Positions 18,757 to 49,137 of a DNA stretch of 64,000 nucleotides are shown one piece after another. Origin of the DNA: Pseudidiomarina planktonica (GTDB lineage Bacteria > Pseudomonadota > Gammaproteobacteria > Enterobacterales > Alteromonadaceae). The notes under the pieces were generated by a model, which was given only the letters and a program-made list of their open reading frames with translations, was not told the origin of the DNA and did not search any database. The DNA is taken from the NCBI RefSeq assembly GCF_900177775.1, contig NZ_FXWH01000003.1, positions 186,001 to 250,000 on the forward strand, read 5' to 3'. The number at the start of each line of letters is the position of its first letter. The first letter of the stretch is position 1. The translations under genes and the position numbers were made by a program.

Positions 18757-18943
18757 GGGTGATCACCCAGGATGCCGCTGCTGGCTGTAGCCCTTGAACC
18801 CATTGGTTCAAGGCGGGGCGCAAATAGTGACCGTAGGCTTCTCAGTACAAGCTGAGCTTGCGCAATAGTCATTCAGTGAACCCCTTAGTAAAAAGCATCG
18901 GCTCAGGGACATAAGCCTGCTGGCAAACATCCCAGGCGATCAT
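18757..18943 (-). ncRNA. ssrS: 6S RNA (SsrS)
   Basis: About 185 nt on the minus strand. It carries hallmark blocks of gammaproteobacterial 6S RNA: GTCCCTGAGCCGAT near the 5' side, GAGAAGCCT in the middle, CCTTGAACCAATGGGTTCAA and GGGCTACAGCC near the 3' side, then GCGGCATCC. The two ends pair (GATCGCCTGGGATG with CATCCTGGGTGATC, with wobbles) to close the long hairpin that mimics an open promoter and binds sigma-70 RNA polymerase. It lies immediately downstream of zapA as in E. coli. Ends are estimated to within a few bases. A spurious open frame at 18675-18872 covers it. Confidence 0.92.
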
Positions 18944-35872: not shown

Positions 35873-37486
35873 TTAAATAACCACCACCCGGTTCCGGCCA
35901 GAGTTTTTGGCCTGATACAGGGCTTCATCGGCACCACGCCAAATGTCGATAACGCTGGTGGTGTTTAGGGTTAAACCAATACTAACCGTCATTCGAATAG
36001 GCTCGTCTACATCGGGGTGCATAATCTGCAGCGCCTCGGTGTCTTTTCTGATGCGTTTGGCAATTTTAGTGGCGGTATCAATATCCACCCGCTCAATCAG
36101 AATAGAAAACTCTTCACCGCCAACCCGCGCAACCGTATCGTAGGGGCGGGCCACTGTGGTTAACAGCTCGGCAAAGCGCACCAGTACGTGATCGCCTACC
36201 AGGTGTCCATGCTCGTCATTGATTTTCTTAAAGTGGTCTAAATCCAGCGCCAGAATAGCCAGCTCGGTTCGCTCGCGGGCAGCGCGGCTCATGGCCTTAT
36301 TCACCAACTCGGTAAAACCACGGCGGTTATATAGGTTAGTTAATGGGTCGGTAATGGAAAGCGTTTGTAGTGCTTTATTCGCTTCTTGCAGCTCTTTCTC
36401 GGCTTCGCGGCGTTGCGCAATTTCTTCGGTCAGCAAGCGCGACAGATAAATAAACCGGCACATTATAAACATCACAATCGCCAGTAAAATAAGTGCGCCT
36501 ATCAGGCTGTAAATTATATAGCTGTAGTCAGCTCGCTCCGGCGGGGTGAAAATAAAACCATCCAACGATGCATTCCCGCGGGTCATATTCAAATCCTGAT
36601 AACTTTCAGCAATCATTTGCCAGCGGCCCGGATTCATATGCCCAAGTTGCACTAGTTCCGGCATCACCAGTTGGCGTATTTTCTCGGCTTCGTAGCGCAA
36701 ATGACCGCGGGATTTTTGCGGGGCATAGTTCGCCTGAATTAAATCAATGGTGCTGTCGACATTCTTAAATGCATAATCCCAACCGCGCTCCACTGCTTCT
36801 TTCATGGCGCTCACCAGCTCAGGATCTGAGTTTGCCAAATCTTCGGTGGTAACCAATACGTCGCTGTAAAAGTTAACCCCGTAGTCACGCGGATTAATCA
36901 GGTTGTAGTCAACGCCACGCTGATTCAGGACATAGGGTTCGTTGGAGATATAACCGTCGTAAGCATCTACTTTGCCGTCAATCAGGTCGTCCAGCCGATA
37001 GGTGTTTGGCACTAACTGTACGGTATCAACCGGCAGTCCTTCTTTGCGCAAAATGGTTACCAACTCGGCACTTTCCGGAGGTGGCATCATCATCAATCGC
37101 TTACCAACTAAGTCTTGCGGGGTGGTGATGTTTGATTCTTTTAAGGTAATCCAAACCAGTGGCGAGGTTTGCATTAGTGCTGCAACCGCAACTACCGGCT
37201 TACCCTCTAATCTGCGCATTACCACGCCGGAGGCGGTAATAGCGAAATCAATATCACCGCGCAGTAGTTTATCGGTAGGTTCTAATGCGTCGGGGCCGCC
37301 TTCCAGCAAAGTCACGTCCAGCCCGGCTTCGGCAAAGTAGCCTTGCTCAACGGCCTGGTAGTAACCGGCAAACTGGAACTGGTGTAGCCAGCGCAATTGC
37401 ACTGTCACTGGGGTTGCAGCGTTGGCAAACGGCATTTGCCAAAGCAGCATAGTCACTAAGCTGAATGTGATTAGAAAATAGCGCAT
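35873..37486 (-). CDS. Diguanylate cyclase with NMT1/THI5-like periplasmic sensor domain
   Basis: 537 residues. Signal peptide, then an NMT1/THI5/SsuA-like substrate-binding domain (about 25-310: LRWLHQFQFAGYYQAVEQGY, GGPDALEPTDKL, DFAITASG), one membrane helix (about 325-350), a short coiled coil, and an intact GGDEF domain with DPLTNLYNRRGF, DLDHFKKINDEHGH, GGEEF (about 458) and the product-inhibition RxxD (RPYD) five residues before. Makes c-di-GMP. The sensor resembles thiamine-precursor or sulfonate-binding proteins, so it may respond to a pyrimidine, amine or sulfonate (inference). Confidence 0.92.
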   Translation of the reverse strand: MRYFLITFSLVTMLLWQMPFANAATPVTVQLRWLHQFQFAGYYQAVEQGYFAEAGLDVTLLEGGPDALEPTDKLLRGDIDFAITASGVVMRRLEGKPVVAVAALMQTSPLVWITLKESNITTPQDLVGKRLMMMPPPESAELVTILRKEGLPVDTVQLVPNTYRLDDLIDGKVDAYDGYISNEPYVLNQRGVDYNLINPRDYGVNFYSDVLVTTEDLANSDPELVSAMKEAVERGWDYAFKNVDSTIDLIQANYAPQKSRGHLRYEAEKIRQLVMPELVQLGHMNPGRWQMIAESYQDLNMTRGNASLDGFIFTPPERADYSYIIYSLIGALILLAIVMFIMCRFIYLSRLLTEEIAQRREAEKELQEANKALQTLSITDPLTNLYNRRGFTELVNKAMSRAARERTELAILALDLDHFKKINDEHGHLVGDHVLVRFAELLTTVARPYDTVARVGGEEFSILIERVDIDTATKIAKRIRKDTEALQIMHPDVDEPIRMTVSIGLTLNTTSVIDIWRGADEALYQAKNSGRNRVVVI

Positions 37487-37584: not shown

Positions 37585-38766
37585 TTAGTCCTTCACCAAT
37601 GGAATGTATTTTTCGTAACCTTCGGCCGCCATATCTTCCAGTGGAATAAAGCGCATTGCTGCTGAGTTCATGCAATAACGTAGGCCGGTAGGTTTCGGGC
37701 CGTCCTCAAATACATGGCCTAAATGCGAGTCGGCATGGGTGCTGCGCGCCTCAATGCGTTTCATAAACCAGGAGCGGTCAGTTTTTGTCACTACAGCAGA
37801 CTCGGTAATAGGTTTGGTAAAGCTTGGCCAACCTGTGCCTGACTCGAATTTGTCCGCCGATGAAAACAGCGGTTCACCACTTACAACATCAACATAAATA
37901 CCATCGCGTTCTTCGTCCCAGTAGGGGTTATTGAACGCGCGCTCGGTTGAGTCTTTCTGAGTCACGCGGTATTGCACATCGGTCAGCATTTCTTGTAACT
38001 CAGCGTCCGATGGCTTGGTGAAGTTGGCGTACGGATCGTCATTGCTCATGCTGTTCTCCTGGTTGGATACTGCGGAATCAGCGTCACTGTTCAGATAGGC
38101 CGCGTTTGAAAATGAAGTATAGTCAACATCGCTGGTGTCTCCCCAAACCGACTCAACAAACTGAAAACGGCCTGAGTTAAAGGTATAAACGCGATAGCGA
38201 ATTGGATTCTTACGATAATAATCCTGATGGTAGGATTCCGCTTTGTAAAAGGTTTTAAATGGCTCTATCGGAATCACGACCGGATCAGAATAGGTATTTG
38301 AAGCGTCCAGTTCGGCAACCGCTGCCTCAGCAATCTGCTGCTGTTGCGCGTTATGATAGAAAATGGCCGGACGATACTGCTTACCACGGTCAACAAACTG
38401 ACCATCATTGTCGGTTGGGTCCATCATGTGCCACAGCGCTTGCAATAGCCCTGCGTACTCAACCACATCAGGATCGTAATACACCTGCACGGCTTCAGTA
38501 TGACCGGTACGGCCGGAGGCCACTTGCTCATAAGTTGGGTTTTCTTCGGTACCACCGCTGTAGCCCGAAATCACGCGGGCTACACCTGGCACTTCCTCGA
38601 AAGCTTTCTCAACGCACCAGAAGCAGCCACCAGCAAAGGTAGCTACAGCCTCATCCTGATCATCACTTTGGGCCACAGCCGCGCCGATGCTGAGCATACT
38701 TAATGCCGCGCCGAGCAATGCGGTTCGTGCCGAGTGCACAACGAATTTAAGAGACTGTATTTTCAT
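37585..38766 (-). CDS. Exported bifunctional methionine sulfoxide reductase MsrA-MsrB
   Basis: 393 residues. Repairs oxidised methionine in envelope proteins. Signal peptide ending VAQS (about 33), MsrA domain (about 40-205) with catalytic GGCFWC (Cys48) and GYSGG, linker rich in Asp/Ser/Asn (about 215-250), and MsrB domain (about 255-393) with catalytic Cys365 in [11 protein letters not shown]. The two CxxC zinc sites common in MsrB are absent (DVVSGEPLF replaces one). Unlike Neisseria PilB it lacks a thioredoxin-like domain, so a separate reductant is needed. Downstream of a DUF1499 gene by 27 nt. Confidence 0.94.
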
Positions 38767-38793: not shown

Positions 38794-39528
38794 TTACGAA
38801 CTCTGTTTCAAACGTGTTTTTAAGCGATCCAGGAAGGCTTCAATACGTTTGGCATTCACGCCCACATCGCTGCGGCCGACGCGTGATTTACTACGTACGT
38901 CAATCACTGAACCCGTCGCTTCCTGACTAATACGAATCACTACGTCGTCTTTAAAGCCAAACCAACGGGTGGTGTCGGTGGCTTCAATACGACCAGAAAC
39001 GATGTCGCTATCAACCAGCTCCCAACCCATTTCCTGAACTACCATTAGTGCTTCTTCAAATATTTCGTTGGCCGGCAAGTCGTGGCGCATAGGCTCAAGA
39101 TCAGGATAAGCCTCTTGTTGCTGCGCTGCGGTTTCCGGGCCAGCGTATTCAACCGGGTTTGGAGCATCGGCACGCAGTGGTGCAATGGTTATAAACTCAG
39201 GCGGATTTTCAGTGTCGGTGCTAATGTCGTGAATTGGCGGTACGCTTTGCGCCGTTTGCAGTTGCGCGTAAGGCAAGTAGAAGCTAATACCACCTGCTAC
39301 CAGGGAAAGTATTAACAGTACCGACATGCCTGCGCGCGGGCGGGCAAAAATAAAATAAAGAATGATGAGCACGGCGGCGCCAGCACCAACATAAGCGGCA
39401 TAACGCATGGTTAAAAACGCTGCCGACAGGTCAGCAACATTGTATTTGTAGGCTGGCCCGGCTAAAGCCAGTGCCAATAATGCCAGTAAGCCTGCAAAGA
39501 TTAATATCCAGCCGATAATTTTTTTCAT
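38794..39528 (-). CDS. DUF1499 membrane protein
   Basis: 244 residues. Three hydrophobic helices at the N-terminus (about 4-25, 40-62, 68-90) followed by a soluble DUF1499 domain (about 110-240) with GRIEATDTTRWFGFKDDVVIR and a DVRSKSRVGRSDVGVNAKRI tail. The domain is widespread and of unknown function. Cotranscribed with msrAB judging by the 27-nt gap, hinting at an envelope-maintenance role (inference). Confidence 0.85.
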   Translation of the reverse strand: MKKIIGWILIFAGLLALLALALAGPAYKYNVADLSAAFLTMRYAAYVGAGAAVLIILYFIFARPRAGMSVLLILSLVAGGISFYLPYAQLQTAQSVPPIHDISTDTENPPEFITIAPLRADAPNPVEYAGPETAAQQQEAYPDLEPMRHDLPANEIFEEALMVVQEMGWELVDSDIVSGRIEATDTTRWFGFKDDVVIRISQEATGSVIDVRSKSRVGRSDVGVNAKRIEAFLDRLKTRLKQSS

Positions 39529-39737
39529 TGTTGTTAGTCCTTGTGAATCATAAAAAGGGCGGTTTTACTGCAGAAAGCCCTGTGTTTGCTTTACTAGCTA
39601 AGCATGAGTACGTAAAAACGCAACTTTTGTATTTGTTTACTGAATTAATAACAACAAAGTTTGCGTTCTGACTGAACGAATAGGCTTAAAAATCAGTATA
39701 CTGTTGAGCTAAAACTATAATACATAGGAAAAAAATA

Positions 39738-42143
39738 ATGCCATTCAAACGTCGACCGCGCGTCACGCCTGTTAATTACCTTAAAGTAAATACGCTCATT
39801 TTGCTGGCAACACCAGCTTTCGTTATGGCGCAGTCAACTACTGCGGATGTAAAAACAGCTTCAGCTGAGCAGAGGGACGTGGAAGTAATTCAGGTTTTTG
39901 GTGACCGCAAACGTGCGTTAACCTCGCCCAAAGACGCCCAACTGAGTGGTCTGTTTGGTGGCGACAAAAGTATTTTTGAAATTCCACGGGCGGTAACACC
40001 AATCACCTCGGCCATGATGGAAGACAACGCCATTGATGATTTGCACGATATTCTTAAGTTAGCACCTAACACTTATGCTGCCAGTGGCTTTGGTGCGCCA
40101 AGCCTGCCAACCATTCGCGGTCAGTTGGGCGAGCTGTTTGAAGCAGGCATGCGCCGTCAGGCGGGTAATAACGGTTTTGGTATTCCGTTGTCGTTCAACG
40201 GCGTGGAACAAATTGATGTAGTGAAAGGCGTGCCTTCAGTGATTCTGGGCAGCACCCAGCGCGTGGGTGGCTTTGTGAATTTGCAGCCGAAGCAAGCCCC
40301 GTTAACGGGTTCTGAAGCCAGCATGAAAGTAAGTGCCGGGCGCTGGGACAGCTACACGGCGCAGGTAGATGCCGGTACGGCCGTGGAAGAAGGTAAGCAG
40401 GGCGTGCGGGTGAGTGCCGAAGTGCGCCGTCAGGGCAGCTTCTATGACTACGCGCATTTTGATAGTGAGAATCTGATGCTGGCTTACCGGTTGCGACCTA
40501 ACAGCAAGAGCGAATGGCGTCTTAATTTTGAGTTCTTTGATGTTGATTACACCGACAACGCCGGTATTAACCGTCCAACGCAGAACCTGATTGACCATAA
40601 TTTATATATCACTGGCCAGGGTGTGCAGCCAAACGGTTCAACCGTGCCAGGCCCTTTTAGCGTCGTTAGCCCAACCGGTGAAGTAGAAATCCCGCGCTCG
40701 CAAGTGCTGACCGATCCGTTAACCACAAACAATGCGCAAACCTATTTAGTTCACAGTGTGTATCAGCTTGAGCTGAATGACTCGCTGGCGTTAACCAACC
40801 GCACTTATTTCCAGCACCTGCAACGTGACGAAGTAGCGACCAACAGCTTTGTGGAAATTATTGACGGCGCTTCGACCTTTGAAAACCGGCTGGAATTGCA
40901 AAAGTTCTGGAGTGAGACTCAGCAAAGCACCTTTGGTTTTAATGTGCGCTACAACGACGTGCTGGGTTATAGCCAGTTCACCACTGAAGCTGATTTACCA
41001 ACGGATTTAACCGGGCCACTAAGTAATCGCCGTATTCCATTAACCGCTGAGCAACAGGCGCGACTAGTTGAATTACGCCCTGGTGTATATGTGTCACCGG
41101 GTGCGCAGTATGACAACAATGGCGACGGGGTGGGTGACTACAGCTTGTCCGATACCACTGATTCTGAAAGTTTGCAGCTTGGTGTGTTCTGGCAGCAAGA
41201 AAGCCAGTTAACCGAGCGCTTGTTGCTCACCCTGGGTGGGCGTTTGGACTATTACGACGTGACCGCGCGGGACGCCTTGCCACCGGAGGGCTTTGCAGCC
41301 GCTGAAGACAGCATTAGCGAAGTACTGGGAAGTGCTGCGGCAAGCTTGAATTACCGCCTGCAAGACTCAGTGTTGTTGTACGGTACGGTCAGCTATCTGG
41401 AATCTACCTCCAATAGCATGGGCGGCGGTAACGTGCTGGGTGCCAACAACCAAATCAGTGAGCTGAACTTTGCTACTGAGAATGAGTTGGTTGAATTGGG
41501 TATTAAATACGCGCCGGCCACCAGCCCCTGGTATGCCGATGCCGCTATATTTAATCAAACCCGCAGCCTGCGTAACCGTGACGGCAGCAACAGTGGCATT
41601 AAAACCCGCGGCTTTGAAACCCAGGTTGTTTACGACGGTTTAGATGGTTGGTGGGTAAGTGCAGGTTATAGTTATCTGGACGCTCGCTACGACAATAGCG
41701 CCAGCTTTCAGGATTCAGCTCAGGTAGCCGATGCTTTTGATGATTCGCGGCCAGATATTATTGAAGGCACAGGTGTTGGTGCACCAAACTTTGCCGGCTT
41801 CGCACCGTCGAGCGTGCGGGTTCAGGGCTTACCTGATCACAGTGCGTCCTTCGCTGTTGGCTATGAGCTAAGCGAGCAGTGGTCACTTGGCTTAGATGCC
41901 ATTTACACCGGTAACTATAAATTAGACTACCTTAATACAGTGCGTATTCGCGATCAGCACACGTTAAATGCGAACGTTCAATACAGCTTTGCCAACCAAC
42001 GCAGCACCTTACGTTTAGACGTATTTAACCTGACGGATCAGGATAACTGGTCGCCGGTGTTTGAAGGTGGCTACTTTGGCTCAACGCTGGCGTTTCCGTC
42101 GTTACCGCGATACCTTGAGTTAACCTTTAAGCACACATTCTAA
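39738..42143 (+). CDS. TonB-dependent receptor heading the ynj-like operon
   Basis: 801 residues. Signal peptide (cleavage near MAQS, about 32), plug domain (about 75-200: DIPRA-like FEIPRAVTPITSAMM, PTIRGQ, GVEQIDVVKGVPSV), and a 22-strand-type beta-barrel ending in F (TFKHTF). AGGAAA precedes the ATG; a likely -10 TATAAT is at 39716-39721 and the palindrome CAGTATACTG at 39694-39703 could be an operator. The 17-nt gap to the next gene and the overlapping genes after it show a six-gene operon, so the receptor probably supplies the YnjBCD importer. The ligand is unknown; no siderophore-gene neighbours. Confidence 0.9.
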   Translation: MPFKRRPRVTPVNYLKVNTLILLATPAFVMAQSTTADVKTASAEQRDVEVIQVFGDRKRALTSPKDAQLSGLFGGDKSIFEIPRAVTPITSAMMEDNAIDDLHDILKLAPNTYAASGFGAPSLPTIRGQLGELFEAGMRRQAGNNGFGIPLSFNGVEQIDVVKGVPSVILGSTQRVGGFVNLQPKQAPLTGSEASMKVSAGRWDSYTAQVDAGTAVEEGKQGVRVSAEVRRQGSFYDYAHFDSENLMLAYRLRPNSKSEWRLNFEFFDVDYTDNAGINRPTQNLIDHNLYITGQGVQPNGSTVPGPFSVVSPTGEVEIPRSQVLTDPLTTNNAQTYLVHSVYQLELNDSLALTNRTYFQHLQRDEVATNSFVEIIDGASTFENRLELQKFWSETQQSTFGFNVRYNDVLGYSQFTTEADLPTDLTGPLSNRRIPLTAEQQARLVELRPGVYVSPGAQYDNNGDGVGDYSLSDTTDSESLQLGVFWQQESQLTERLLLTLGGRLDYYDVTARDALPPEGFAAAEDSISEVLGSAAASLNYRLQDSVLLYGTVSYLESTSNSMGGGNVLGANNQISELNFATENELVELGIKYAPATSPWYADAAIFNQTRSLRNRDGSNSGIKTRGFETQVVYDGLDGWWVSAGYSYLDARYDNSASFQDSAQVADAFDDSRPDIIEGTGVGAPNFAGFAPSSVRVQGLPDHSASFAVGYELSEQWSLGLDAIYTGNYKLDYLNTVRIRDQHTLNANVQYSFANQRSTLRLDVFNLTDQDNWSPVFEGGYFGSTLAFPSLPRYLELTFKHTF

Positions 42144-42160
42144 ACGCAGGGAGAACAACC

Positions 42161-44302
42161 TTGGATGTTCGAAAACTAGCTCTGGCAGGTGTTTTTGTTG
42201 CGGCACTGGCGATATTTTTTGCCTTTGATCTGGGGCAGTACTTAACCCTGTCGTGGTTTCAGGAACAACAACAGCAGTTGCAGAACTTCCAGCAGGAAAA
42301 CTGGCTGGCGGTGTTTGCGGTCTACTTCGTTATTTACGTAGTGGCAACGGCCCTGTCGCTGCCGGGAGCTGTGGTATTAACTCTTGGTGCTGGCGCCTTA
42401 TTCGGGCTGGGCTGGGGTTTATTACTGGCCTCGTTCGCCTCAACTATAGGTGCAACCCTAGCATTCTTAAGTGCCCGCTTTATTCTTCGAGACTGGGTGC
42501 ACAGCAAGTTCTCCAAGCGCTTAAAAGCTATTAACAAAGGCATGGAGCGTGACGGCGCGTTTTATCTGTTAAGCCTGCGGTTGGTGCCACTGTTTCCGTT
42601 TTTCGTTATCAACCTGGCCATGGGCTTAACTTCCATAAAGGCCTGGACGTTTTATTGGGTCAGTCAGGTGGGTATGTTGTTGGGCACCGCGGTTTATATT
42701 AATGCCGGTACCCAATTGTCACAGTTGGATTCGTTAGGCGGTATTTTCTCGTTCGAGCTGGTGCTGTCGTTTGCGCTGTTAGGTATTTTCCCGCTGATTG
42801 CGAAGTTTATTGTTGGCTATTTGCGCCGCCGTAAAGTTTACCAGGGCTATGAACAGCCGAAGCAGTTCGACTACAACCTGGTGGTTATTGGTGCTGGCTC
42901 TGCAGGGCTAGTGAGTGCTTACATAGCAGCGGCGGTAAAAGCCAAAGTATTGTTGGTTGAGAAGCACAAAATGGGTGGTGACTGCTTAAATACCGGTTGT
43001 GTGCCTTCCAAAGCCTTGTTGCACGCCGGTAAAGTAGCGCAGCAGCAACGCACAGCGCACCACATTGGCATTACCAGCAACGAGCCGCAGGTTGATTTTG
43101 CCAAGGTTATGCAGCGGGTGCAGAACGTTATTCAAAGCATTGAGCCGCATGACTCAGTAGAGCGTTACACTAAGCTTGGCGTTGAGGTGGCTACGGCCAG
43201 TGCCGAAATTATTTCGCCCTGGCGAGTAAAAGTAACCGACGCCAACGGCGAGCGCGAAGTAGCCACCAAAAACATTATTGTTGCAGCCGGTGCCGGTCCT
43301 TTTGTTCCGGATTTACCGGGGTTGTCTGAAAGTGGTTATTTGACGGCTGAAAACCTTTGGCAATTGCGTGAGTTACCTAAACAGTTAGTGGTTATGGGGG
43401 GCGGCCCTATTGGCTGTGAACTGGCGCAGGCATTCTCACGCCTGGGCAGCAAGGTAACTATTGTTGAACAAACCGAGCGCTTGCTTATTAAAGAAGACGG
43501 CGACGTTGCCAGCCTAGTGCAACAGCGCTTTGAAGCCGAAGATATTAACTTGCTGACTAATCACAAAGCGGTAGCTGTGGGAAGTGAAGGTTCGCGCAAA
43601 TACCTTGAAGTTGAAAGTAATGGCCAGCGCAAGCAAGTTGAGTTTGACCAATTACTGGTAGCTGTAGGCCGTAAAGCCAATTTAACCGGTTACGGGCTGG
43701 AAAATATTGGTGTTAAAACCGACCGCACCATAGTAACGAACGAGTTGCTGCAAACCAATTTCCCGAATATATACGCTGCCGGTGACGTAGCCGGGCCTTA
43801 TCAGTTTACCCACACTGCCAGCCATCAGGCCTGGTATGCTGCGGTGAATGCCTTGTTTAGTCCGTTTAAAACCTTTAAAGCCGACTACCGGGTTATTCCC
43901 TGGGCCACTTTTACCGACCCTGAAGTAGCTACCGTTGGATTAACGGAAGCGGCCGCCAAAGAGCAAGATATTGAATACGAAGTAACCCGTTACGATATTG
44001 GCGAGCTGGATCGGGCTTTAACCGAAGATCAGGCTTTTGGTATGGTGAAAGTGCTAACGGCACCGGGCAAAGACAAGATTCTTGGCGCCACTATTGTGGG
44101 TGCGCAGGCGGGAGAGTTAATTGCCGAATTTGTGCTGGCCATGAAACACAATATTGGCCTGAACAAAATCCTGGGCACCATACATATTTATCCAACCATG
44201 GCGGAAGCCAATAAATACCTGGCTGGCAACTGGAAACGGGCGAATGCACCGGAAAAGCTGCTGCAATGGGTAGAGCGCTTCCACAGCTGGCGGCGTAATT
44301 AA
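42161..44302 (+). CDS. TVP38/TMEM64 membrane domain fused to a FAD-dependent disulfide reductase
   Basis: 713 residues from a TTG start (GGGAG seven bases upstream; no in-frame ATG nearby). N-terminal TVP38/TMEM64 (DedA-superfamily) membrane domain, about 1-225 with GAVVLTLGAGALFG and RLVPLFPFFVINLAMG. C-terminal class I pyridine-nucleotide disulfide oxidoreductase, about 240-700: FAD motif VIGAGSAGLVSAY, redox pair C275/C280 in GGDCLNTGCVPSK, NAD motif GGGPIGCELAQAF. The usual catalytic His-Pro is Tyr-Pro (IHIYPTMAE), and no C-terminal Cys pair or metal domain exists, so the common mercuric-reductase label is unlikely. Stop overlaps ynjB by 1 nt. Confidence 0.9.
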   Translation: MDVRKLALAGVFVAALAIFFAFDLGQYLTLSWFQEQQQQLQNFQQENWLAVFAVYFVIYVVATALSLPGAVVLTLGAGALFGLGWGLLLASFASTIGATLAFLSARFILRDWVHSKFSKRLKAINKGMERDGAFYLLSLRLVPLFPFFVINLAMGLTSIKAWTFYWVSQVGMLLGTAVYINAGTQLSQLDSLGGIFSFELVLSFALLGIFPLIAKFIVGYLRRRKVYQGYEQPKQFDYNLVVIGAGSAGLVSAYIAAAVKAKVLLVEKHKMGGDCLNTGCVPSKALLHAGKVAQQQRTAHHIGITSNEPQVDFAKVMQRVQNVIQSIEPHDSVERYTKLGVEVATASAEIISPWRVKVTDANGEREVATKNIIVAAGAGPFVPDLPGLSESGYLTAENLWQLRELPKQLVVMGGGPIGCELAQAFSRLGSKVTIVEQTERLLIKEDGDVASLVQQRFEAEDINLLTNHKAVAVGSEGSRKYLEVESNGQRKQVEFDQLLVAVGRKANLTGYGLENIGVKTDRTIVTNELLQTNFPNIYAAGDVAGPYQFTHTASHQAWYAAVNALFSPFKTFKADYRVIPWATFTDPEVATVGLTEAAAKEQDIEYEVTRYDIGELDRALTEDQAFGMVKVLTAPGKDKILGATIVGAQAGELIAEFVLAMKHNIGLNKILGTIHIYPTMAEANKYLAGNWKRANAPEKLLQWVERFHSWRRN

Positions 44303-45438
44303 TGCGTCGCTGGTTGGTCGCCTTGGTAATGGCCTGCGTGCCGGTTATGGCCGGGGCTGACAGCTCTGACAGTTCGAACAAGGCCTGGCAACAGCAAGTT
44401 ACTGCGGCGCAGGGCAAAACCGTTTACTTTTACGCCTGGGGTGGCTCGCAAGGGGTAAATAATTACCTGCGCTGGGCTGGACGGCAGCTGCGTCAGCAGT
44501 ATGGTATTCGGTTAGAGCATGTGAAAGTAGACGATATTGCCACCGCTGTAACTGTGGTGTTGAATCAATCGAACGCCGCTGGTGCGGTAGATTTACTATG
44601 GATAAACGGCGAGAATTTTCGCACCCTGAAACAAGCAGGTTTGCTGCGCGGCCAGTTAGACTCAAACATTCCCAATGTAAGCGAGCTAGCCTTTGACACC
44701 TTGCCGCTAAGCAGCGATTTTGGTGAGCCTGTTGAAGGCTTTGAAGTGCCCTGGGGCATTGGCCAGTTTCATTTGCTGGCGCGGCCCGACAGCATCAGTG
44801 GCGACCAGTTTAGCCCGAGCCAATTAATGGACTTTGCCAAAGCAAACCACAACAGATTTACTTATCCGGCTCCGCCTGAATTCCACGGCACTACCTTTTT
44901 AAAGTCACTGCTGCTGGTACTTAGCGATAAAGATTCACGTTTATACGAACCTGTTACTGAAGCGGCCGCGGCAGACCTGCTACCTTTATTGTGGGACTAT
45001 TTAGACAGCTTGCATCCGCTGTTATGGCGCCAGGGTGAGGTGTTTGTGCAAAGCGTTAGCGAGCAGCAACGGCTACTGGCCGACGGTGTGTTGGACATAG
45101 CCTTTAGCTTTAACCCCAATGAACTTGAGGTAGCCGCGCAAGCCGGCAGGTTACCTGCTGAATTAACCCGTGCCAGTTTGGGCGTTGAAGCCATAACCAA
45201 TAGCCATTACCTGGCTATTCCGGTAAGCGCCCAAGCGCCTGAAGCCGCTGAAGTGGTAATTCAGTTTTTATTGTCCCGCGAAGCACAGCAGCAAAAAGCG
45301 CAGTTGTCAGGGTGGGGTGATCCTTCGGTGCGTCGTGATATGCTGCAACAACAGCAATTGTTTCCGGCCACTGCAGAACTTCACAGCAGCTGGCAGGATT
45401 ATCTGGAGAGCGCATGGCTCGAGCGTTATCAACATTAA
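44302..45438 (+). CDS. ynjB: ABC transporter substrate-binding protein, YnjB family
   Basis: 378 residues. Signal peptide ending AGADS; mature protein of the extracellular solute-binding superfamily beginning QGKTVYFYAWGGSQGVNNYLRW, diagnostic for the YnjB family. It would capture the ligand in the periplasm for YnjC/YnjD. The true substrate of YnjBCD is not established; relatives carry thiamine, iron or polyamine. Overlaps the upstream reductase by 1 nt and ynjC by 25 nt. Confidence 0.88.
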   Translation: MRRWLVALVMACVPVMAGADSSDSSNKAWQQQVTAAQGKTVYFYAWGGSQGVNNYLRWAGRQLRQQYGIRLEHVKVDDIATAVTVVLNQSNAAGAVDLLWINGENFRTLKQAGLLRGQLDSNIPNVSELAFDTLPLSSDFGEPVEGFEVPWGIGQFHLLARPDSISGDQFSPSQLMDFAKANHNRFTYPAPPEFHGTTFLKSLLLVLSDKDSRLYEPVTEAAAADLLPLLWDYLDSLHPLLWRQGEVFVQSVSEQQRLLADGVLDIAFSFNPNELEVAAQAGRLPAELTRASLGVEAITNSHYLAIPVSAQAPEAAEVVIQFLLSREAQQQKAQLSGWGDPSVRRDMLQQQQLFPATAELHSSWQDYLESAWLERYQH

Positions 45439-47099
45439 CCTGGCCATGGTTACTGGTGTTAGTGGTGCCGGTAGCCATTGGCATACTGCTGGGCCTGAAT
45501 GGGCTCTGGCGGTTTACTGACTGGTTCGAATTTTTTCAGCAGCCGGGCTTGTTTAAAAGCATTGGCTACAGCCTGTTGGTGGCCATAGTTGCGCCGCTAC
45601 TAGCGCTATATTCAGCCTTACTTATTAGCGCCTCCGCGCAACACACCGGCGCCTGGCGCCGCACCCGGCAGTGGCTGGCACCCTTGCTGTCCATGCCGCA
45701 TGTGGCGTTTGCCATTGGCTTACTCTTCCTGTTAAGCCCCAGTGGTTGGCTGGTACGCCTGCTACAGGAGCTATTCTCGTTATTCCCACAACCGCCAACC
45801 AACTGGTGGCCGCAGGAAAAAAGCCTGGGCTTAATGATTCTGGTGCTGGTGCTAAAGGAAATTCCTTTCCTACTCTTTATGATTGCCGCCAGTGCGCAGC
45901 AATTTCCACAGCAGCAATGGCAGCGGTTGGCCGCAACCATGGGTTATGGCAGCTATGTGAGCTGGTGGAAAATCATGCGGCCATTGTTGGTGCGCCGGTT
46001 AAAACTGCCATTCTTTGCGGTGGTGGTTTACAGCCTGGCGGTGGTAGATATTGCTGCTTTGGTTGGCCCGAATACGCCGGCACCACTGGCGGTAGAAGTG
46101 GTGAACTGGCAGCGCAGCTTTGTGCCGGTAGATCAAAGTTTTGCTGCGTTCGGTAGCTTTATTCTGCTAGTGGCGGCGGCATTTATGTATGCGCTGGTGC
46201 ATTGGCATGAAGGCTGGGTATTGAAAGGCGCCCGGCAGCAGTGGTGGTTTATGCGCCGCCCATGGGGCGTGTTAGCTATCGGCTTAGGGCGGTTATGGCA
46301 GCCACTGGCAGTGGTGTTGGTAATTGGCTCGCTGGCGGTGCTCATAAGCTGGTCGCTTGCCTTTGGTTGGTACTACCCCGATTTAAGCCCAGATTCCTGG
46401 CAAGTGAGTTTGTGGGTGCAGGAATGGCCGTTTCTGCAACAGCCTTTATTTCATTCATTGTCACTGGCATTAATTACCGCGGTAGCCGCCTTAAGCTTGA
46501 GCGTATTGCTGCTGGAACATCAGCGCAAGCGTAATCAGCACTGGCCCGACTGGATTGTGTTGCTGCCGCTACTAGTGCCGCAAGTAAGCCTGGTGCTGGG
46601 TTGGGTAAGCCTGCAAAGTATGTTGGGTATTACGCCCAAGGTATGGTCAAGTTACCTGGCGGTTATTATTGGCCACATTATTTTTGCGCTGCCTTACAGC
46701 TATTTAGTTCTGGCCAGCCATTACCGTAGTTTCAATCAGCGCTATATGAGCATTGCCGCTACTTTGGGCTACAGCCGTTGGCAGGCGTGGTGGCAGATTC
46801 AGTGGCCGCTGTTGCGCGCGCCCTTGTTGTTCAGCGGTGCTATGGCCTTTGCGGTCAGCATTGCGCAGTACGTACCTACCTTGTTGTTGGGCAATGGTCG
46901 CATTACCACCCTGACTACCGAAACCGTGGCGCTGGCTAGTGGCGGTGACCGCGCCTTGATCGCGCTCTATTCATTGCTGCAGGCGCTGTTACCTTTACTG
47001 ATTTTCACGGCGGTGCTCTTTACTGGCCGAACAGCAGGACGAACTGCTGGTCGAAAGGCAGGCCAAACCCAGGGAGTGAACTCTGATGCTGGTAATTAA
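45414..47099 (+). CDS. ynjC: ABC transporter fused permease, YnjC family
   Basis: 561 residues with two binding-protein-dependent permease domains in one chain (about 1-280 and 290-545), about 12 helices. Each half has an EAA loop: AATMGYGSYVSWWKIMRPLL and IAATLGYSRWQAWWQIQWPLL. This double-permease form matches YnjC and iron/thiamine-type importers. Ends in an Arg/Gly-rich tail (GRTAGRTAGRKAGQ), an odd repeat with no obvious role. Overlaps ynjB (25 nt) and ynjD (14 nt). Confidence 0.9.
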   Translation: MARALSTLTWPWLLVLVVPVAIGILLGLNGLWRFTDWFEFFQQPGLFKSIGYSLLVAIVAPLLALYSALLISASAQHTGAWRRTRQWLAPLLSMPHVAFAIGLLFLLSPSGWLVRLLQELFSLFPQPPTNWWPQEKSLGLMILVLVLKEIPFLLFMIAASAQQFPQQQWQRLAATMGYGSYVSWWKIMRPLLVRRLKLPFFAVVVYSLAVVDIAALVGPNTPAPLAVEVVNWQRSFVPVDQSFAAFGSFILLVAAAFMYALVHWHEGWVLKGARQQWWFMRRPWGVLAIGLGRLWQPLAVVLVIGSLAVLISWSLAFGWYYPDLSPDSWQVSLWVQEWPFLQQPLFHSLSLALITAVAALSLSVLLLEHQRKRNQHWPDWIVLLPLLVPQVSLVLGWVSLQSMLGITPKVWSSYLAVIIGHIIFALPYSYLVLASHYRSFNQRYMSIAATLGYSRWQAWWQIQWPLLRAPLLFSGAMAFAVSIAQYVPTLLLGNGRITTLTTETVALASGGDRALIALYSLLQALLPLLIFTAVLFTGRTAGRTAGRKAGQTQGVNSDAGN

Positions 47100-47721
47100 C
47101 CAACTGACAATTCGGCTGAAAGACTCGGAAAAGCCGTTATTAACCCTGCCCGAAGTGTGCGTGAAGAAAGGCGAAGTAGGGGTGCTCATGGGCGCTAGCG
47201 GCAGCGGTAAATCTACTGCGCTACGCTGGCTTATTGGTGAGTCGCAGCCTGACTTTGACATTAGTGGCCAGGTGCTGCTGAACGATACTGATATTACTGA
47301 ATTTAACACTCAGGATCGTGACATTGGCTTGCTATTTCAGGACGTGTTGCTGTTTCCACACATGACCGTGGCTGAAAACCTGGCGTTTGCGCTGCCTAAA
47401 CGATTGCGTAAAGCCAAGCCGGAAGAAAAGCGTGAACATGTGCAGGCCATGCTGGCGTCTATGGAAATGGCAGACTTTGGTGACGTGTACCCGGAAACCT
47501 TAAGCGGTGGCCAACAGGCTCGCGTTGGTCTGGCACGGGCACTAATTCATGAACCGGCGGCACTGCTATTGGATGAACCCTTTTCAGCGCTGGACATGGC
47601 CTTGCGTGACAGCATTCGCAGTTGGACCTATAAGCTGCTGCAAGAATGGCAAGTGCCGGCGCTGGTGGTTAGCCATGACATTGCCGACAGCGAGTCGGCG
47701 CAACAGGTGATTTATGTTTGA
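47086..47721 (+). CDS. ynjD: ABC transporter ATPase, YnjD family
   Basis: 211 residues, a minimal ABC domain: Walker A GASGSGKST (about 33-41), Q loop LLFQDVLLFPHMTVAENLAF, signature LSGGQQAR, Walker B ALLLDEPFSALD, H loop VVSHDIADS. No C-terminal regulatory domain, as in YnjD. Overlaps ynjC by 14 nt and ynjF by 8 nt. Confidence 0.92.
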   Translation: MLVINQLTIRLKDSEKPLLTLPEVCVKKGEVGVLMGASGSGKSTALRWLIGESQPDFDISGQVLLNDTDITEFNTQDRDIGLLFQDVLLFPHMTVAENLAFALPKRLRKAKPEEKREHVQAMLASMEMADFGDVYPETLSGGQQARVGLARALIHEPAALLLDEPFSALDMALRDSIRSWTYKLLQEWQVPALVVSHDIADSESAQQVIYV

Positions 47722-48328
47722 TCCCAGACTAAATAGCATCCTTAGACCGGTACTGAAGCAGGTTGCACAACTGCTGGTAAAGGCGGGAGTGAGTGCCAAT
47801 CAGATTACTGTGGTTGGCTTTTTAATAGGTATGCTGGCGCTGCCATTGTTGGCATTTGAAGCCTATTTATGGGCACTGGCGATGATTGCTATTAACCGTA
47901 TCGCTGATGGTTTAGACGGTGCCGTGGCGCGGTTAACGCACACCACAGACGCCGGCGGCTATTTAGATATTACCTTTGATTTTATTTTTTACAGTTCGGT
48001 AGTGTTTGGTTTTTTACTGGCCAATCCGGAACAAAATGCCATTGCGGCAGGGCTGTTGCTGGTTACCTTTATGGGTACCGGTTCCACCTTTCTGGCCTTC
48101 TCAACGCTGGCGGTGAAACACGGCATTGATAACCCCGAGTATCCGAATAAGTCGCTGCACTATATGGGCGGTATTACCGAGGGCTTTGAAACCATTCTGG
48201 CGTTTGTGTTGTTCTGCCTGTGGCCCCAGTATTTTGTGGCGCTGGCACTAGTGTTCTCAGCCTTATGCTGGATAACCGCCTGCAGTCGTTTATGGGCCGG
48301 GTACCAAACCCTTAAACACCGGGCCTAG
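47714..48328 (+). CDS. ynjF: CDP-alcohol phosphatidyltransferase, YnjF family
   Basis: 204-residue integral membrane enzyme. The CDP-alcohol phosphotransferase motif DGLDGAVAR-x7-G-x3-D-x3-D is intact (about 74-98), in the variant spacing seen in YnjF. It would transfer a phosphatidyl or similar group from a CDP-linked donor to an alcohol, in the inner membrane. In E. coli ynjF also lies beside ynjBCD, so its link to this importer is old. The product is unknown. Stop overlaps the next gene's stop by 4 nt on the other strand. Confidence 0.92.
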   Translation: MFDPRLNSILRPVLKQVAQLLVKAGVSANQITVVGFLIGMLALPLLAFEAYLWALAMIAINRIADGLDGAVARLTHTTDAGGYLDITFDFIFYSSVVFGFLLANPEQNAIAAGLLLVTFMGTGSTFLAFSTLAVKHGIDNPEYPNKSLHYMGGITEGFETILAFVLFCLWPQYFVALALVFSALCWITACSRLWAGYQTLKHRA

Positions 48329-49137
48329 TCTTGCTGTTTCGAGGCAGCGGGTTTGGCGAAAGGTAGCCACAACATGCCGCGCAGCCCATTGGTTTGCGTG
48401 CGTTCCCGGAACTCTTTAATGCCTATTCTCAAGTTCGCTTCGCCACCTTTGGCGTTGGCGGTGTAACTGCCGAACACACGATCCCAGCACGACAGGTTAA
48501 AACCGTAGTTACTGTTGGTTTCCTCTGGCCGCTGGCTATGGTGAATGCGGTGCATGGCGGGGGTTACAATAATAGCCCGCACGGGGCGCTCTAACCCTTT
48601 GGGTAAGGTCACGTTGGCGTGATTAAATATCGAGGTAGCGCTCAGTATAATTTCAAATAAAATCACCGCTTCCGCTGGTGCACCCAAGGCAACCACCACG
48701 CCAATTTTAATCAGCATGCTCAGCAGAATTTCCAACGGATGAAAGCGTAGGCCAGTGGTTACATCAATGTCCTGATCAACGTGATGCACGCGGTGCATAC
48801 GCCATAACCAGGGTACCTGGTGAAAAATGCGATGCTGCCAGTAAATGGCGATATCCAGAACCACCACCGCTAGAACAGTGACCAGCCACCAGGGCAGCTC
48901 AAACTGTGCCAGTAAGCCCCATTGTTGTTCCTGCGCCCAAAGTGCGGCGCCCACAGCTCCTGCGGGTATCAGTACCCGCACCAGCAGGGTATTTAGCACC
49001 ACAATACTTAAGTTGGCTGGCCACCGCTGTTTACGCCCCAGCGTGGTTTGCCGGAAGGGTTTGCGCCACTCCCACAGCAACATTAGCAGTAGCACTGCTA
49101 AAAAAGCTGATAATCGAATCAGGGGTTCGCTGGCCAT
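48325..49137 (-). CDS. Sterol desaturase / fatty-acid hydroxylase family protein
   Basis: 270 residues, several membrane helices and the three His clusters of di-iron membrane oxygenases: HRIFH, HRVHH (HRVHHVD), and HRIHHS, plus the intervening FNHAN His. The family hydroxylates or desaturates lipids, or cleaves ether lipids. Bacteria of this type rarely have sterols, so a fatty acid or membrane-lipid substrate is more likely. Convergent with ynjF, stops overlapping by 4 nt. Confidence 0.88.
   Translation of the reverse strand: MASEPLIRLSAFLAVLLLMLLWEWRKPFRQTTLGRKQRWPANLSIVVLNTLLVRVLIPAGAVGAALWAQEQQWGLLAQFELPWWLVTVLAVVVLDIAIYWQHRIFHQVPWLWRMHRVHHVDQDIDVTTGLRFHPLEILLSMLIKIGVVVALGAPAEAVILFEIILSATSIFNHANVTLPKGLERPVRAIIVTPAMHRIHHSQRPEETNSNYGFNLSCWDRVFGSYTANAKGGEANLRIGIKEFRERTQTNGLRGMLWLPFAKPAASKQQD

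Follow-up and report, generated by a model that had tools for sequence, protein, structure and literature searches.

The locus considered here, in the genome of Pseudidiomarina planktonica, raises the question of why the genes for a TonB-dependent receptor, a TVP38/DedA membrane protein fused to an oxidoreductase (the fusion), the ATP-binding cassette (ABC) importer YnjBCD, and the CDP-alcohol phosphatidyltransferase YnjF should share one operon. It lies at positions 39738-48328 of a 64-kb stretch of DNA analysed as a whole (the window), in a host genome of 5 contigs and 2.57 Mb that is 99.63% complete. A sequence-only reading had described six genes on one strand and proposed that they form a single pathway leading from outer-membrane uptake to the transfer of a head group onto lipid. 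The layout was borne out, since the six forward-strand open reading frames (ORFs), the gaps between them (17, -1, -25, -14, and -8 nt, as computed), and the family assignments all hold (Table 1). The arrangement is beyond chance because the same order recurs in other genera. Our answer, to which we give about an even chance, is that the operon encodes a head-group salvage pathway, in which an imported polyhydroxylated, sugar- or ribose-like alcohol would be built into a phospholipid by YnjF, with the fusion as an accessory.

The strongest evidence for a single pathway is the co-occurrence of YnjB and YnjF. The sample for all genome counts comprises 398 genomes of the phylum, the host included (genomes, loci, and families carry our labels G, L, and f), and 51 of them, the host among them, encode YnjB above the curated cut-off. 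YnjF was searched with a profile of 27 YnjF proteins in 160 genomes, i.e., all 51 with YnjB and 109 hand-picked ones without it (38 counted as carrying the fusion, 30 carrying the arsenosugar-synthesis protein ArsS without a full-length fusion, and 41 with none of these). It was found in 49 of the 51 YnjB genomes (missing from G086 and G280) vs. 5 of the 109 others, an association with a Fisher P of about 8e-33 that, like all the Fisher and hypergeometric values given here, ignores shared ancestry. These five genomes (G366, G087, G353, G380, and G012) are all among the 38 with the fusion and have YnjF within about 6 kb of it (L133, L135, L140, L160, and L166), and YnjF was absent from all 71 genomes searched that have neither YnjB nor the fusion. 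The ynjF gene is close to ynjB in 35 of the 49 genomes, and at least 66 kb away or on another contig in the remaining 14 (G142, G158, G385, G050, G395, G314, G016, G262, G321, G247, G357, G361, G008, and G392); therefore, linkage alone does not account for the co-occurrence. Both genes are also jointly present or absent within families f1 and f3, and mostly so within f11 and f16, where G366 and G086 are the exceptions. These results support the proposal that the uptake step and the transfer of the head group belong functionally together.

The assignment of the transporter to YnjBCD (COG4134-4136) comes from YnjB, which scores 411 bits with NF008633/PRK11622 (cut-off 203), and from the ynjB-C-D gene order. 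YnjC is the counterpart of E. coli ynjC and is also matched by ThiP/ModB-type permease models, every one below its cut-off; a passage in the literature terms ynjBCD an 'uncharacterized transport system'. Such ThiBPQ-like parts might indicate a thiamine-type importer whose link to YnjF is merely historical, arising by co-transfer of the neighbourhood. The ThiP model on YnjC (45 bits), the ThiQ model on YnjD (139 bits), and the proximity of ynjF to ynjB in those 35 genomes would fit, but both scores fall under their cut-offs (395 and 245, respectively), no thiamine pyrophosphate riboswitch was detected in the window at the gathering threshold, and the 14 genomes with unlinked genes, together with the joint presence and absence within families, speak against it, so that we consider this explanation very improbable.

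To compare gene orders, 60 neighbourhoods of up to 20 kb were mapped (those of the 50 remaining YnjB carriers and of 10 carriers of YnjF). A further 80 named loci are the top-scoring ones among at least 591 obtained in a search with a YnjB alignment. The order receptor - fusion - (DUF547) - ynjB - ynjC - ynjD - ynjF recurs across genera (e.g., L104, L108, L109, L111-L113, L115-L118, L121, L178, and L220), and the gene association is thus not limited to the host genome. The fusion is present in 17 of 17 receptor-bearing loci, 13 among the 60 mapped and 4 among the best 80 named ones, L114 and L179 being one genome. The ynjB-C-D-F core is found without receptor or fusion in many Vibrio loci and in the Pseudidiomarina loci L208 and L229. 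Receptor and fusion are, then, optional parts, the receptor being confined to a subset of relatives, and the idea of one pathway made of all six genes is supported for the importer and YnjF but, in that form, not for the other two. Unlinked distributions of the fusion and YnjF, named beforehand as an argument against a common pathway, were encountered in part, given that 29 genomes with YnjF have no full-length fusion at the threshold used and YnjF is absent from 34 of the 59 genomes counted as carrying the fusion.

The reaction of YnjF is suggested by its motif and its predicted fold. CDP-alcohol phosphatidyltransferases share the motif D-x2-D-G-x2-A-R-x8-G-x3-D-x3-D. YnjF matches the Pfam family CDP-OH_P_transf with 38 bits (cut-off 22) and has all four motif Asp (D65, D68, D85, and D89); in 27 YnjF sequences, D65, D68, G69, A72, G81, D85, and D89 are invariant and R73 is kept in at least 90%, the spacing after AR being 7 in the host protein and 8 in some rows. 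The AlphaFold2 (AF2) model of YnjF, with a predicted local distance difference test (pLDDT) score of 89.1, shows the membrane fold characteristic of the family and is nearest to phosphatidylinositol-phosphate synthase 5d92 (Z 20.8, root-mean-square deviation 2.4 A over 189 residues), followed by AF2299 (Z 18.7) and DIPPS (4mnd, Z 18.4); PgsA (7drj, 14.7), choline phosphotransferases (11.9-14.7), and phosphatidylserine synthase (7b1k, 12.7) rank lower. Of the eight named synthases that YnjF matches, none is matched above its curated cut-off (e.g., 69 bits vs. 180 for NF040950 and 43 vs. 170 for NF045883). Membership among the phosphatidylinositol-phosphate or archaetidylinositol-phosphate synthases was rejected on these low scores, leaving a resemblance alone, and the model of YnjF is that of a CDP-alcohol phosphatidyltransferase whose closest structural neighbours are the enzymes that use inositol phosphate. 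A search of open-access literature turned up no functional study of YnjF.

The AF2 model of YnjB (pLDDT 93.4) has a predicted solute-binding-protein fold, and a VIA comparison returned mostly glycoside-binding proteins as near ties (Z 25-27). Searched by sequence against solved structures, both YnjB and the receptor gave weak matches. The invariant residues of YnjB include many Trp, Phe, and Asn, three Lys, and no Arg, a make-up that would argue against a phosphate or a ferric ligand. This bears on the reading of the operon as a metal or siderophore uptake system, in which the receptor and an FbpA/Thi-type ABC importer would act with a membrane-bound reductase freeing the metal, YnjF being merely a membrane adaptation. 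Ferric-binding proteins do appear among the Foldseek rows of YnjB (E about 1e-15), TIGR01783, which describes TonB-siderophore receptors, is the top model for the receptor, and the reductase domain resembles mercuric reductase. However, the receptor reaches 123.4 bits with TIGR01783 vs. a cut-off of 223.5 and so falls outside that family, and the invariant residues of YnjB lack an adjacent Tyr pair, which is the signature of ferric-binding proteins. Furthermore, the best Fur-like site matches at only 14 of 19 positions and overlaps the DUF1499 start, albeit as the best in the window, and the reading has to contend with the near-constant company of YnjF in YnjB genomes. We judge metal uptake to be quite improbable.

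The fusion protein combines a VTT domain (82 bits, match 71-184) with a Pyr_redox_2 domain (208 bits, residues about 236-690) that keeps the CxxxxC pair. In dihydrolipoyl dehydrogenase, the catalytic His sits in an HPT-x2-E motif; the fusion has Tyr at this position (YPTMAE vs. HPTLSE), as does mercuric reductase 5x1y. The protein was rejected as a dihydrolipoyl dehydrogenase for this change, even though its TIGR01350 score of 410.7 is just above the cut-off of 408.8, and as MerA since it scores 388 bits vs. 454 with TIGR02053 and lacks the C-terminal Cys pair that is the hallmark of MerA, its C-terminal tail having no Cys. The domain, earlier labelled a 'flavin reductase', belongs to the mercuric-reductase/lipoamide-dehydrogenase superfamily, and we file it as neither enzyme because the catalytic His is missing despite the TIGR01350 score. 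Matches to the fusion with an internal stop had suggested a selenoprotein, an idea discarded as these are separate neighbouring TVP38 and reductase ORFs (L163 and L169-L175).

The genomic company of the fusion provides a hint to the substrate. Arsenosugars are 5-dimethylarsinoyl ribofuranosides, and lipids bearing them are known from algae, according to passages of one source (PMC10456119); the initial steps of their synthesis are ascribed to ArsM and ArsS in passages of another (PMC8552651). Among the 59 genomes counted as carrying the fusion (including G018, which matches only from residue 199 on and whose map, L168, shows the reductase part alone, and G122, where it is two adjacent ORFs, L163), 21 have YnjB (7.6 expected), 26 have ArsS (G018 and G122 among them), 12 have neither, and none has both. 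The start-to-start distance between the fusion and YnjB does not exceed about 8 kb in 16 of the 21 genomes, and that between the fusion and ArsS is at most 6 kb in 12 of the 26. In the whole sample, ArsS (E <= 1e-40) is found in none of the 51 YnjB genomes vs. 116 of the 347 others (114 above the cut-off), a set dominated by family f39. Within the class, 35 genomes carry the fusion, 19 with YnjB, 10 with ArsS, 6 with neither, and none with both (naive P 4e-5), and families f11 and f21 hold fusion genomes of both types. The ArsS proteins scanned in L145 and L147 gave 442 and 462 bits. In a tree of 65 fusion proteins, built by a quick method and having some long branches, rows of the YnjB type (which include 7 relatives outside the 398 genomes) and of the ArsS type are intermingled, the starred branches requiring at least 5 changes, although shuffling gives less clustering for each of the labels. 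The exclusion between ArsS and YnjB would follow if a related molecule were synthesized in some lineages and taken up in others, and the fusion is distributed as an accessory step common to both routes, synthesis and import, would be.

Particular loci can be read in the same way. In G366 (L133 and L274), which has ArsS and no YnjB, about 6 kb separate YnjF and the fusion, and DUF547, TIGR04283, and an oxidoreductase of the SelD type lie close by, a case that we read as a natural swap of the importer for synthesis; its fusion falls into one clade (SH-aLRT 100) with those of G019 and G246, which have YnjB and YnjF and no ArsS. In L135 and L140 (family f45, without YnjB), a CNT-family nucleoside transporter, above the Pfam cut-off and with 272 and 286 bits under the nupC cut-off of 442, lies between the fusion and ynjF, i.e., it takes the place of YnjBCD beside YnjF. 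TIGR04283 and TIGR04282, which NCBI names arsenosugar glycosyltransferases, follow ynjBCD in L073 (273 and 167 bits) and, by similarity, in L068 and L069, and the pair precedes ynjB in Azospirillum soli (L239; 195 bits, over the cut-off, and 128 bits, just below 134); in G086 and G246, TIGR04283 is also found, at about 3 and about 10 kb from YnjB, respectively. The host genome gave no match to ArsS (TIGR04167), none to TIGR04283 at E <= 1e-30, and, as candidates for ArsM, weak methyltransferase matches only (63 bits vs. a cut-off of 263); therefore, the host should not make arsenosugars. One version of the salvage pathway would have YnjBCD-YnjF scavenging arsenosugars or a close ribofuranoside relative, bacteria without ArsS importing an algal glycoside that YnjF would turn into arsenosugar-type phospholipids, and ArsS bacteria making the same block, hence the exclusion and the shared fusion. 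We hold this version unlikely; the hints fit a ribose- or sugar-like alcohol, and arsenic itself is a guess. The open-access literature searched held nothing on arsenosugar combined with TVP38 or on arsenosugar gene clusters.

Some arsenosugar/fusion clusters also encode a DUF3047 protein (L125, 11753-12496, +, PF11249, 241 bits; L147, 6878-7618, -, by similarity). In L154, L158, L159, and L162, the fusion adjoins another radical SAM protein, possibly reflecting a third pathway that uses the fusion; the best model for that of L159 is Rv1681-like (102 bits vs. a cut-off of 380), and L162 has, in addition, an ArsM-like and a TIGR04283-like gene.

The redox genes around these clusters call for one more explanation, namely that the fusion and YnjF belong to an envelope-stress or oxidative-repair set, with AhpD-like YnjA, rhodanese YnjE, MsrAB, and SelD-type oxidoreductases nearby, and that the cargo of the transporter is a thiol or selenium compound. 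TIGR03169 ('Nterm_to_SelD') proteins do lie beside YnjBCD or YnjF, by NCBIfam in L219, L237, and L247, just under the cut-off in L108, and by similarity in L073, L107, L135, and L140; ynjE adjoins the cluster in enterics, and in a BaeR regulon table (PMC2731931) ynjA (1.6-fold) and ynjB (1.4-fold) are listed as weakly raised and ynjC and ynjD are not. But this leaves unexplained why a phosphatidyltransferase is the most faithful partner, and YnjA, YnjE, and the SelD-type genes each occur in only part of the loci, which makes a stress set, to our mind, rather improbable. TIGR03169-like oxidoreductases were also seen by similarity near YnjBCD, YnjF, or the fusion in L133, L137, and L146, and the L219 protein is a full fusion with SelD.

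In the salvage pathway that we favour, the TonB receptor would, in the host lineage, carry the alcohol across the outer membrane, YnjB would bind this small polyhydroxylated, sugar- or ribose-like compound in the periplasm, and YnjC and YnjD would bring it into the cell. At the inner membrane, YnjF would join it to CDP-diacylglycerol, yielding a phospholipid that bears that head group. The fusion might oxidize or reduce the head group or the lipid, or flip the lipid, and might also serve bacteria that make a related ribose-type molecule with ArsS. Several observations weigh against this proposal. Foldseek ranks a putative 2-aminoethylphosphonate-binding protein (4r6y) first for the YnjB model, and AfuA/hexose-phosphate-binding proteins are, with the ferric-binding ones, among the next rows; given this order and the near ties of the VIA rows, the ligand class suggested for YnjB is weak. 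TIGR04283 occurs less often with YnjB (7 of 51 genomes) than without it (149 of 347), the 109 genomes without YnjB were not a random choice, the neighbours of the unlinked ynjF genes, compared by eye, had nothing telling in common, a TonB receptor hints at a ligand bigger or scarcer than a simple glycoside, and the E. coli gene order described below differs.

YnjBCD and YnjF are widespread in bacteria (E. coli, Vibrio, and Aeromonas are examples), where they are annotated merely as putative. Their near-perfect co-occurrence joins two orphan annotations into one testable pathway, in which the cargo of YnjBCD should be the head group of the lipid made by YnjF. If the substrate were related to arsenosugars, the operon would offer a candidate route for bacterial arsenosugar uptake and a candidate step towards arsenosugar phospholipids.

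Both flanks of the operon are shared with relatives. The fatty-acid hydroxylase gene (107 bits with the OlsE model, under its cut-off of 475) is a conserved neighbour that elsewhere runs in the same direction as ynjF (e.g., L103, L104, L109, and L111-L113). DUF1499-like genes recur, by similarity, beside the cluster in Aeromonas loci and adjoining YnjF in L135 and L140, and both flanking genes are common to Idiomarina rhizosphaerae L220 and the two Pseudidiomarina loci L208 and L229. MsrAB-like genes are also near the cluster in L108, L119, L208, and L229. Upstream of the operon, no Rfam RNA or riboswitch was found (6S RNA, elsewhere, is the sole match in the window at the gathering threshold), a search for Fur, Zur, and BaeR consensus sites gave nothing convincing, and 5 sigma-70-like sites were found vs. 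10.2 in shuffles.

Table 1. Features of the operon and its surroundings (positions in the window).
Feature	Position	Strand	Remarks
6S/SsrS RNA	18760-18941	-	116.9 bits
Protein with periplasmic NMT1-like binding domain, transmembrane helix, and GGDEF domain	35873-37486	-	domains assigned by eye
MsrA/MsrB fusion	37585-38766	-	adjoins the DUF1499 gene
DUF1499 gene	38794-39528	-	PF07386; divergent from receptor gene
Upstream intergenic region	39529-39737		no confident promoter or regulator site
TonB-dependent receptor	39738-42143	+	801 aa; Pfam plug and barrel matches
TVP38/DedA-pyridine-nucleotide-disulphide oxidoreductase fusion	42161-44302	+	713 aa; TTG start
YnjB, periplasmic solute-binding protein	44302-45438	+	NF008633
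YnjC, two-part fused ABC permease	45414-47099	+	Pfam BPD_transp_1
YnjD, ABC ATPase	47086-47721	+	Pfam ABC_tran, 108 bits
YnjF, CDP-alcohol phosphatidyltransferase, predicted fold like inositol-phosphate synthases	47714-48328	+	Pfam CDP-OH_P_transf
Fatty-acid hydroxylase superfamily gene	48325-49137	-	PF04116, 115 bits; convergent with ynjF, 4-nt overlap

The known relative of the operon is ydjXYZ-ynjABCDE-ynjF of E. coli K-12, which has the same ynjB-C-D order and DedA/TVP38-type genes upstream (ydjX and ydjZ). There, ynjF had been said to lie next to ynjBCD; it is indeed nearby, 1.4 kb past ynjD, but after ynjE and on the opposite strand, and hence not in the same operon. E. coli also differs in encoding the TVP38 and redox parts separately (YdjX, YdjY, YdjZ, YnjA, and YnjE) and in having no TonB receptor there. 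The Aeromonas and Photobacterium loci, with the order ynjA - fusion - ynjB-C-D-F (e.g., L184, L185, and L231), are intermediate between E. coli and the host. As for the fusion, passages of PMC10127716, which name no gene neighbours, describe the combination with a pyridine-nucleotide-disulphide oxidoreductase as the commonest COG0398 domain fusion, and 'ynj' and 'ydjX' do not occur in its text; the host has the same two-domain protein, whereas in our sample it is divided between two settings, that of YnjBCD and that of ArsS. The arsenosugar clusters (ArsM, ArsS, TIGR04282, and TIGR04283) have in common with the YnjBCD/YnjF clusters the fusion, DUF547, and sometimes TIGR04282/83-type genes, but differ from the host operon in the arsenosugar genes that the host genome lacks at the thresholds used. 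Finally, in choline uptake followed by phosphatidylcholine synthase (Pcs), an imported alcohol is joined to CDP-diacylglycerol by a CDP-alcohol phosphotransferase. The route proposed here for YnjBCD-YnjF would likewise start from an imported alcohol and CDP-diacylglycerol, although Pcs models give YnjF only about 20-23 bits and the inositol-phosphate enzymes resemble it more closely.

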